The position numbers were made by a program, and so were the translations under genes. Below are positions 56,112-59,343 of a stretch of 64,000 nt of DNA, in pieces. The DNA lies in the NCBI GenBank assembly GCA_022843465.1, contig JALHNO010000002.1, positions 62,001-126,000 of the forward strand. The letters run 5' to 3'. This stretch comes from Pseudomonadota bacterium (GTDB lineage: Bacteria; Pseudomonadota; Gammaproteobacteria; Xanthomonadales; Ahniellaceae). How positions within the stretch are numbered: position 1 is the stretch's first letter; every line of letters starts with the position of its first letter. The notes below the pieces were generated by a model. It did not search any database, was not told the origin of the DNA, and saw only the letters and a program-made list of their open reading frames with translations.

Positions 56112-56723
56112 ATGACCTTGCCTCTCATACTGTTTTACGCCTTCGGCGCGATCCTGATCGGCTCGGCGCTGGCTGTGGTAACCGCGCGCAACTCGGTGCA
56201 TGCGGCGCTCTGGCTGGTACTGACGTTTTTCACCAGCGCCTGCATCTGGTTGCTGCTGCACGCCGAATTTCTGGCCATCGTGCTGGTGCTGGTCTACGTT
56301 GGCGCCGTGATGGTGCTGTTCCTGTTCGTGGTGATGATGCTCGACGTCAAGGTGGCGCCGCTGCGCGAGGGCTTTGTGCGCCATCTGCCGGTCGGCCTGC
56401 TGGTCGCCGGCGTGATGCTGGCCGAAATGCTGGGCCTGATCGGTTTCGGCAAGCTCAATGAGGGTGGTGCCCTGGTGGATGCCGCAGCAGCACAAGGCCT
56501 TTCCAATACCGAGTGGTTGGGCCGGACGCTGTTCAGCGATTACATCCTGCCGTTCGAGATTGCTGCGGTGATTCTTACTGTGGCGATCATTGCTGCGGTT
56601 GCACTGACACTGAGGCATCGGCCGAATGTGCGAAGCCAGGATCCCTCGGCGCAGGCCGCCGTGCGCAGCCAGGACCGTATCCGCATTGTCGAGATCGCGT
56701 CCGCGAACAAGGAGACGCCATGA
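56112..56723 (+). CDS. nuoJ: NADH-quinone oxidoreductase subunit J
   Basis: The 203-residue subunit has five membrane helices, with the conserved helix-3 segment [20 protein letters not shown] that undergoes a pi-bulge in complex I. A short polar C-terminal tail follows. Its stop overlaps nuoK by 4 bp. Confidence 0.96.
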
Positions 56724-57025
56724 TTACCCTGGGCCATACCATTGCGCTCGGCGCCATTCTTTTCTGCATCAGCGTTGCCGGCATCTTCATCAATCGCAAG
56801 AACGTAATCACCCTGTTGATGGCGATTGAATTGATGCTGTTGTCGGTTAATTTCAATTTCGTCGCGTTCTCGAGTTTTCTTGGTGACCCTGCGGGACAGA
56901 TCTTTGTGTTCTTTATCCTGACCGTCGCAGCGGCCGAGGCGGCCATCGGTCTGGCCATCCTCGTCGTGCTGTTCCGCAATCGGGCCACCATCAATATCGA
57001 ACAACTCGGAGACCTGAAGGGGTGA
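56720..57025 (+). CDS. nuoK: NADH-quinone oxidoreductase subunit K
   Basis: The 101-residue subunit starts at the ATG at 56720 (GGAGACGCC upstream). Its three helices carry the conserved glutamates in [19 protein letters not shown] and [18 protein letters not shown], part of the proton pathway. A large inverted repeat begins two bases after its stop codon. Confidence 0.97.
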
Positions 57026-57026
57026 G

Positions 57027-57068
57027 ATCCGGCTTGGCATGCGTCGAATCGCATGCCAAGCCGGATCG
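57027..57068 (+). repeat. 18-bp perfect inverted repeat after nuoK
   Basis: GATCCGGCTTGGCATGCG (57027-57044) and its exact complement (57051-57068) flank a 6-nt loop (TCGAAT). The hairpin would be very stable. No T-run follows, so it is not a standard terminator; it may shape mRNA processing between nuoK and nuoL. Confidence 0.9.
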
Positions 57069-57077
57069 AACGCCCGT

Positions 57078-57176
57078 GTAGGTGCGGGGCTTGCCCCGCA
57101 CGCTCTGAATGTAAGTGCGGGGCCTGCCCCGAAAGCGTTACCTGTAGATGCGGGGCTTGCCCCGCATGTTTTCCCG
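57078..57176 (+). repeat. Three tandem 33-bp GTAG-headed REP palindromes
   Basis: Copies start at 57078, 57111 and 57144, exactly 33 bp apart, each opening with TGTAG or TGTAA. Each carries a hairpin with a GCGGGGC arm: GTGCGGGGC/GCCCCGCAC in copy 1, a broken right arm in copy 2, and ATGCGGGGC/GCCCCGCAT with compensated ends in copy 3. The GTAG head plus palindrome is the REP architecture known from RAYT-mobilised repeats, such as the SMAG elements of Stenotrophomonas. Confidence 0.88.
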
Positions 57177-57246
57177 GTCGCGGTTGGAACGCACTCCATG
57201 GCGCGTGGGTCTGGACCCGCAGCCACAACGAAGAAGAGATGTGAAC

Positions 57247-59343
57247 ATGCAATCGATGCTTCTCACCATTGCGCTGGCCCCCTTGTTCGGTGCAGTCGTT
57301 GCCGGCTTGTTCGGCCGCCAGATCGGTCGGGTTGGTGCCCACACCGTCACGATTGCGGGTGTCGCCCTTTCACTGGTGCTGTCCCTGGTGGTGTTCAAAC
57401 GCCTCGCGTTTGACGGTGCGCCGGTCTTCAACGAGAACATCTATACCTGGTACCAGATCGGTTCGTACAGCGCGCACGTCGGTTTCCTGATCGATCGCTT
57501 GACCGCGGTGATGATGGTCGTGGTGACCTTCGTATCGCTGATGGTGCATGTCTACACGATCGGCTACATGAAGGACGATCCGGGCTACCAGCGCTTCTTC
57601 AGCTACATCGCTTTGTTCACGTTCTCGATGCTGATGCTGGTGATGAGCAATAATTTCCTCCAGCTTTTCTTCGGCTGGGAAGCGGTCGGTCTGGTGTCCT
57701 ACCTGCTGATCGGATTCTGGTTCAAGCGGCCGACGGCGATCTTCGCCAACCTGAAGGCGTTCCTGGTCAACCGTGTCGGCGACTTCGGCTTTCTGCTCGG
57801 CATCGCCGCGGTACTGATGTATTTCGGCAGCCTCGATTACGCCACGGTGTTTGCGAATCGCGAGTCCATCGTTGGCAAGGAGATCGAGATCTTCTCCGGC
57901 TACGCCTGGGCAGTTCCGACGGTGATCGGCATCCTGCTGTTCATTGGTGCCATGGGCAAATCGGCACAGGTTCCCCTGCATGTCTGGCTGCCGGATTCAA
58001 TGGAAGGCCCGACGCCAATCTCGGCACTGATCCACGCGGCGACCATGGTCACCGCCGGCATCTTCATGGTGGCGCGGATGTCGCCGCTGTACGAGCTCTC
58101 GGAGACAGCGCTCGCTTTCGTGGTCGTCATCGGTGCCACCACGGCGCTGTTCACCGGACTGATCGGTCTGGTACAGAACGACATCAAGCGCGTGGTCGCC
58201 TATTCGACCCTCTCGCAACTCGGTTACATGACCGTCGCCCTGGGTGCTTCAGCCTACGGTGCTGCGATCTTCCATCTGATGACCCATGCCTTCTTCAAGG
58301 CCTTGCTGTTCCTTGGTGCCGGCTCGGTGATCATTGCCATGCATCACGAGCAGGACATGCGTTACATGGGCGGACTGCGCAAGTACATGCCGATCACCTA
58401 CTGGACCGCCGTTCTCGGTACCCTGGCTTTGGTCGGTACCCCGCTGTTTTCCGGCTTCTATTCGAAGGACGCGATCATCGAAGCGGTGCACCACGCGTCG
58501 GCGCAGGGTGGCGCGGCCTATACCTACGCGTACTGGTGCGTTCTGCTGGGCGTGTTCGTGACGGCGCTGTACAGCTTCCGTCTGCTCTACATGACCTTCC
58601 ATGGCAGGGAGCGCTTTGTGGTCGCCGACCATGGAAGCGATCATGCCCCGCTCGCGGGTTCGGCGCCTGCGCCGGCAGTGAGCAGTCACGGCAACGATCA
58701 TCACGCCAACGACAAGGCCGACGCGCACGACCACCACCATGGGCATCAGCCAGGTCATCTCGAGCACGCGCCACACGAGTCGCCGTGGGTGGTCACCCTG
58801 CCGCTGATCCTGCTGGCGATTCCCTCGGTGTGCATCGCCTGGTTCTTCGTCGAGCCGATGCTGTTCGGCGGCTTTTTCGACGGTGCCATCGTGGTGGCAC
58901 CTGCGCATGATGTGCTGGCGGAAATGGGCAAGGACTTCCATGGCGTGCTTGCCTTTGCACTGCACGGTATCCAGACGCCGCCGTTCTGGTTCGCCTTTGC
59001 CGGCTTCGCGGTGGCGACCTATGTCTATCTGTTCAATCCGGCCATGGCAGATCGTGCCGCCCGCCTGTTTGCGCCCCTGGTCCGCCTGCTCGAGCGCAAG
59101 TACGGGTTTGACGAGCTCTATCAGGCGGTGTTCGCGCGCGGCAGCCTGTTGCTGGGTCGCGGCCTCTGGAAGTGGGGCGATGCGCGCCTGATCGATGGCT
59201 GGATCGTCAATGGCTCGGCCGCCCTGGTCGATCGCAGCTCCGGCATTCTGCGCTGGATGCAGTCCGGCTACCTGTACCACTACGCCTTCGCGATGATCCT
59301 GGGGTTGATAGCGCTGCTTGGCGCCTTCCTCTGGCTGAAATAA
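57247..59343 (+). CDS. nuoL: NADH-quinone oxidoreductase subunit L
   Basis: The 698-residue antiporter-like proton pump starts at the ATG at 57247, preceded by AAGAAGAG. Key features are FGWEAVGLVSYLLIGFWF and the charged helix segments GAMGKSAQVPLHVWLPDSME and STLSQLGYMTVALG. A long lateral helix and the last membrane helix lie at the C-terminus. Unusually, a loop at about 461-511 holds 13 histidines. A 221-bp gap with repeats separates it from nuoK, while other nuo gaps are at most about 20 bp. Confidence 0.96.
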   Translation: MQSMLLTIALAPLFGAVVAGLFGRQIGRVGAHTVTIAGVALSLVLSLVVFKRLAFDGAPVFNENIYTWYQIGSYSAHVGFLIDRLTAVMMVVVTFVSLMVHVYTIGYMKDDPGYQRFFSYIALFTFSMLMLVMSNNFLQLFFGWEAVGLVSYLLIGFWFKRPTAIFANLKAFLVNRVGDFGFLLGIAAVLMYFGSLDYATVFANRESIVGKEIEIFSGYAWAVPTVIGILLFIGAMGKSAQVPLHVWLPDSMEGPTPISALIHAATMVTAGIFMVARMSPLYELSETALAFVVVIGATTALFTGLIGLVQNDIKRVVAYSTLSQLGYMTVALGASAYGAAIFHLMTHAFFKALLFLGAGSVIIAMHHEQDMRYMGGLRKYMPITYWTAVLGTLALVGTPLFSGFYSKDAIIEAVHHASAQGGAAYTYAYWCVLLGVFVTALYSFRLLYMTFHGRERFVVADHGSDHAPLAGSAPAPAVSSHGNDHHANDKADAHDHHHGHQPGHLEHAPHESPWVVTLPLILLAIPSVCIAWFFVEPMLFGGFFDGAIVVAPAHDVLAEMGKDFHGVLAFALHGIQTPPFWFAFAGFAVATYVYLFNPAMADRAARLFAPLVRLLERKYGFDELYQAVFARGSLLLGRGLWKWGDARLIDGWIVNGSAALVDRSSGILRWMQSGYLYHYAFAMILGLIALLGAFLWLK

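Follow-up and report, generated by a model that had tools for sequence, protein, structure and literature searches.

The nuoK-nuoL junction

In the 64,000-nucleotide stretch of DNA analysed here (the window), the complex I genes nuoK and nuoL are separated by 221 nt, and the gap holds a head-to-tail array of three 33-nt units (57077-57175, with spacings of 33 and 33), preceded by a long stem and followed by a small one. The features of the junction are as follows.

56720-57025, forward strand: nuoK, ending in CTGAAGGGG TGA (stop codon 57023-57025), the end holding a Shine-Dalgarno-like stretch
57026-57067, forward strand: perfect 18-bp stem with a 6-nt loop, predicted at -38.8 kcal/mol, beginning 0 nt after the nuoK stop codon
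57077-57109, forward strand: unit 1, GTAG head, TT centre, 9-bp stem GTGCGGGGC/GCCCCGCAC
57110-57142, forward strand: unit 2, GTAA head, CT centre, two outer pairs broken, a degenerate copy
57143-57175, forward strand: unit 3, GTAG head, 9-bp stem ATGCGGGGC/GCCCCGCAT, intact around TT
57205-57220, forward strand: small stem-loop GTGGGT CTGG ACCCGC, predicted by folding
57225-57246, forward strand: nuoL leader with a weak purine-rich Shine-Dalgarno-like stretch, -2.9 kcal/mol
57247-59343, forward strand: nuoL, ATG start placed by homology

Three palindromic units with an exact 33-bp spacing had been reported between nuoK and nuoL in the initial annotation of this DNA, and this was borne out, the real frame starting one base earlier, at 57077. 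Three places in the window match the array consensus when up to 3 mismatches are allowed, where 0.01 is expected, and none of 100 shuffled sequences reached three. Pairwise identity among the units is 24, 26 and 25 of 33 positions. The GTAG tetranucleotide stands beside a short stem-loop, as in GTAG-type REPs, in two of the three units, the other having GTAA, and the stems were predicted by folding; the location is likewise that of such elements, extragenic and downstream of a gene.

According to the available parts of the description of the GTAG-tagged REP superfamily, most of these repeats are found between genes that are co-directional or convergent, close to 3' ends, and complementary stem variants are common among them (Di Nocera et al., 2013, PMC3733652). 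The nuo units share with them the GTAG at one end, the TT loop, a stem that falls in or close to their usual range of 6-9 bp, and alternative complementary stem residues, and the array shares the position downstream of a gene and between co-directional genes; unlike them, the exact nuo unit occurs at one locus only, in a head-to-tail period of 33 and with one GTAA copy (PMC3733652, same parts). For the S. maltophilia enzyme, the accessible text of another study states that changes at positions 3 and 4 of GTAG abolish cleavage (PMC8266576), and if this rule holds here, the GTAA copy (unit 2) would be inert. A narrow search over titles and the beginnings of abstracts found no report of a REP or palindromic intergenic sequence in a nuo operon. 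The array is genuine and, as an element, ordinary: its kind is already known, and its sequence is private to this locus.

Folding of the gap

The 18-bp stem directly behind nuoK was absent from the initial annotation, is a stronger palindrome than the array units and has the longest arms among the 17 inverted repeats that were listed for the window and whose arms are no more than 60 bases apart. A genome search with its 18-mer arm gave 28 further places, one with 2 mismatches and the others with 3, against 3 for the reversed control. On inspection, all 28 lacked a long palindrome of this sequence, so that a second copy of the stem was not found; four of the places hold unrelated hairpins of 8-9 bp. 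The stem was accordingly rejected as a repeat family in spite of the excess of arm matches over the control (28 versus 3).

The predicted folding energy of 57023-57245 was -121.3 kcal/mol, compared with -89.6 on average for shuffles (z -6.4). The segment 57176-57246 folded no better than shuffles and unit 2, folded alone, did little better (23 of 200 shuffles were as good). An Rfam scan at gathering scores returned two tRNAs and nothing else. The strength of the predicted hairpins and the length of the untranslated stretch that holds them might suggest that transcription is terminated or attenuated between nuoK and nuoL, but neither a terminator-like site with a T run nor a promoter-like site was found in 56900-57400 by a simple consensus scan, which makes this reading very improbable.

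The position of the 18-bp stem raises the question of control at the level of translation. By analogy, a stem of -38.8 kcal/mol starting 0 nt after the nuoK stop codon could stall ribosomes, leading to mRNA cleavage and a lower output of nuoK. In E. coli, REPs lying no more than 15 nt from a stop codon can cause ribosomes to stall, a finding relayed second-hand in the consulted portion of PMC12306157. Against this stand the lack of a second copy of the 18-bp stem, which is hence not a REP, and the distance of 52 nt from the stop codon to the GTAG of unit 1, which exceeds the 15-nt range. We consider such control unlikely.

Covariation and constraint in the stems

Copy 3 had been described as carrying compensatory changes in both arms, and these paired changes as suggesting selection on RNA hairpins. 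The first statement holds in part, since one pair does change from G-C in unit 1 to A-T in unit 3; this is the single covarying position among nine pairs, unit 2 breaks two pairs, and the covariation score of the three units was equalled by 170 of 500 shuffles. The second is not supported, as one pair in nine is not above shuffles and complementary stem alternatives are usual in GTAG families, as far as the available parts of PMC3733652 describe them. Variable columns are fewer in the stems (3 of 18) than in the spacers (6 of 8; p 0.008, for a division of columns chosen after seeing the data and for three copies only), a weak hint of constraint.

Repeats related to the units elsewhere in the genome

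With the unit consensus, a genome-wide search at up to 3 mismatches gave eight places, three of them the nuo units, and the reversed control gave six. The five other places (1-3 mismatches) are thus not above the controls, and no clear copy of the exact unit was found outside the array. When the stem was left free in a wider pattern, 43 matches were obtained, compared with 25 for the reversed controls, and the mismatch-free matches were three: units 1 and 3 and one non-palindrome.

The 16-bp core GCGGGGCTTGCCCCGC gave a different picture. With up to 1 mismatch allowed, it is present at 91 genomic sites, including two in the array, with none in the reversed control, and 45 copies are exact, the two array units included. 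Of the many copies that a GTAG-type REP would show, the genome has the core at these sites and the full unit at this locus only. Among the sequence contexts retrieved, 129 core sites fall within 2 mismatches, 126 of them outside nuo; GTAG directly precedes the flanking base in 43 of the 126, and the flanking pair is A/T in 90 and T/A, the nuo type, in none. The commonest form, GTAGA-GCGGGGCTTGCCCCGC-TGC, is like the nuo units in its 16-bp core, its GTAG head and its tandem arrays, and differs from them in the A/T flanking pair, in a stem one pair shorter and in its commonest tandem period of 40 (14 neighbour pairs). One site (C20:69858 of the same genome, G000) combines the head spacing of the nuo unit with the common tail and is a partial candidate for an intermediate. 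Comparison of the end of nuoK with that of the gap gave no exact common word of at least 6 nt, as a target duplication would leave.

To judge from these sequences, the nuo units seem to be a GTAG-type REP variant that is private and was multiplied locally; it has the common core without being an ordinary copy. The differences in head spacing and tail, together with the 0 of 126 core sites with T/A flanks, would also suit a tandem repeat of unrelated kind whose likeness to REPs is accidental; the exact 16-bp core in two of the three units, its 45 exact genomic copies set against a reversed control of 0 at up to 1 mismatch, and the GTAG head all speak against such a coincidence, which we regard as improbable.

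The common core is also found repeatedly joined to inverted ends similar to AGGCGTTAACCT (L006/L017, L007/L018, L200, L212 and L214). In contigs C3 and C12, such inverted ends flank an IS200-like gene on both sides, which suggests a composite element.

RAYT and other Y1_Tnp genes

The GTAG-headed palindromes had further been taken for REPs mobilised by RAYT enzymes, and the genome does hold RAYT genes. Sixteen Y1_Tnp matches were found, 15 of them over the Pfam cut-off. Among the six proteins that were scanned, two passed the NCBIfam RAYT cut-off (C16:14314 and C16:385), three matched below it and one was IS200-like. The RAYT at C16:14314 (L022) sits among GGCGTCGC/GGCCGCGC palindromes, and the RAYT-like gene at C28:31829 (L024), which scored 74.9 bits (cut-off 80) and is also the one Y1_Tnp match under the Pfam cut-off, lies among 17 GGGCATCTC sites. 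Related core was found near six IS200-like loci (L017-L021 and L023), whose genes have 47-74% identity to the intact IS200-like protein of C25 and are in two pieces in four cases.

In the whole-genome search and in the locus contexts, the surroundings of all 16 Y1_Tnp loci lacked a nuo-type unit, and no cognate RAYT flanked by the same units was found. The reading as REPs is partly supported, by the REP-like architecture, the core at 91 sites and the presence of RAYT genes, and falls short in that no RAYT lies beside the unit; the search proposed for the unit and a RAYT gene likewise found the gene and no other clear copy of the exact unit.

Occurrence of the unit and core in other genomes

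The unit was found in none of 368 other genomes of the class at up to 1 mismatch. Among 100 relatives, matches with no more than 2 mismatches were found in six, of which one has 1 mismatch and a GTGG head. The GTGGGTGCGGGGC-TGCCCCGCACGC elements of four genomes of the same order (L138-L141) have the stem of the nuo units, with its GTGC/GCAC base, and a similar tail; they differ from the nuo units in their GTGG head and in their occurrence, each genome having a single match at up to 2 mismatches, outside nuo. The core was found in four of the nine other family genomes, with nine matches in G005, ten in G007 and none in the congener. One match in a family member (G005 C8, L136), seemingly a compensated copy, was set aside as lying inside a long open frame, presumably that of an undecaprenyl diphosphate synthase.

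Spacing of nuoK and nuoL in relatives and the start of nuoL

The proposed comparison of the gap in relatives was carried out, and it set the 221 nt of this genome against the gaps of seven other family members in which nuoK was found: 3-4 nt in six, among them the single congener compared, with 4 nt, and 123 nt in the seventh; two more family members gave no nuoK match and stand outside this count. Over 110 loci, the present one included, which are not independent (some are near-identical and many are from Burkholderiales) and to which 30 of the 57 genomes with a nuoK match in one search contributed, the gap is at most 20 nt in 66 and at least 80 nt in 16. In a check of other junctions, made to see whether nuoK-nuoL is a hot spot, gaps reaching 80 nt are as frequent at nuoI-J (16 of 108 versus 16 of 110 at nuoK-nuoL, p 1.0) and rarer at nuoH-I (4 of 106, p 0.009) and nuoJ-K (3 of 109, p 0.003); at nuoL-M they are 4 of 27. 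Values near 2000 nt for nuoK-L in one of two measurements are artefacts of the choice of alignment pieces, and the figures for this junction come from the other.

A perfect hairpin of at least 7 bp is present in six of the 16 long nuoK-nuoL gaps and absent from ten, so a long gap does not imply hairpins. Other long gaps are filled by unrelated sequence, in which heptamer-like repeats (L154 and L034), several hairpins (L160) and a repeat common to the gaps of L057, L082 and L087 were seen by eye. The junction could be one that tolerates additions, with extra and often repetitive sequence (GTAG palindromes here, heptamer-like repeats or hairpins elsewhere) gained independently in unrelated lineages, uncoupling the antiporter subunits nuoL-N from nuoA-K and tuning the stoichiometry of complex I; we give this broader idea little credence.

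Within 11 nt of the stop codon, 36 of 42 nuoK ends hold AAGGG and the other six AAAGG (own genome included), and in the genomes with a short gap nuoL probably starts from this Shine-Dalgarno-like site inside nuoK. In the present genome the nuoK-end stretch lies 221 nt from nuoL and pairs with an anti-Shine-Dalgarno string at -8.0 kcal/mol, in a segment that includes the stop codon, and the site just upstream of nuoL at -2.9, against a median of -4.5 kcal/mol over the 66 short-gap loci. Because of the wider gap, nuoL has lost its close link to the Shine-Dalgarno-like stretch of nuoK, and the close arrangement is lost in this genome.

The G-to-A change in unit 3 creates an ATG at 57148 in frame with nuoL, which would add 33 codons. 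No Shine-Dalgarno-like pairing was found at this ATG; gene callers may set the start of nuoL there.

Origin and possible function of the array

We infer, with a probability of roughly 0.7, that this lineage acquired a GTAG-type REP in its nuoK-nuoL gap and that the REP was then multiplied in tandem. The palindrome would most likely have entered through a REP-processing (RAYT-like) enzyme and would have been copied head to tail, probably by slippage, to give the 33-bp period. For this explanation we count the array above shuffles, the core at 91 sites, the GTAG at 43 of 126, the period-40 tandem arrays, the RAYT-like genes (two of them in palindrome arrays), the short gaps in the family, the gap folding (z -6.4) and the less variable stem columns. 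Counted against it are the five weaker places versus six controls, the T/A flanks (0 of 126), the 0 of 368 class genomes and 6 of 100 relatives, as well as the absence of a RAYT beside the units, the degenerate unit 2, the lack of a target duplication and the 10 of 16 long gaps free of hairpins.

Whether such a landing does anything for the cell is a separate matter. The E. coli malEFG intercistronic structure is a REP. It provides a model for intergenic hairpins that protect the upstream mRNA, and the accessible text of PMC5927463 describes internal 3' structures protecting operon segments in E. coli and the differential decay of malEFG. In comparison, the gap that holds the nuo array is nearly absent from relatives. 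Under the mechanism modelled on this case, the array and the unrelated 18-bp stem would have widened a gap that is 3-4 nt in most family members, and nuoL, deprived of the stretch at the nuoK end, would start from its own weaker one; the mRNA hairpins would probably keep 3'-5' exonucleases away from the nuoA-K 3' end and probably lower the translation of nuoL-N relative to nuoA-K. A regulatory role of the array is possible, and the RNA roles put forward in the initial annotation, protection of nuoA-K and tuning of nuoL-N, are compatible with the layout of the junction. The RNA effect taken by itself, as protection of nuoA-K mRNA and lowering of nuoL-N, is a tentative proposal, which we would put at about one chance in three.

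Odds a little short of even are given to the reading that landing and multiplication were merely tolerated, leaving a neutral relic without a selected RNA role. The array is not seen in the congener or in most family members, unit 2 is broken, covariation does not exceed shuffles, and the same gap is filled by unrelated sequence in other lineages; the lower variability of stem than of spacer columns and the intact 18-bp stem adjoining the array point the other way.

The locus is a small natural example of palindromic repeats placed where the genes of a respiratory operon normally lie close together, for which near relatives offer short-gap comparisons, and the uncoupling of nuoL is the part that merits an experiment. 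If the RNA effect is true, it would show how repeat landings can retune the subunit ratios of a protein complex.
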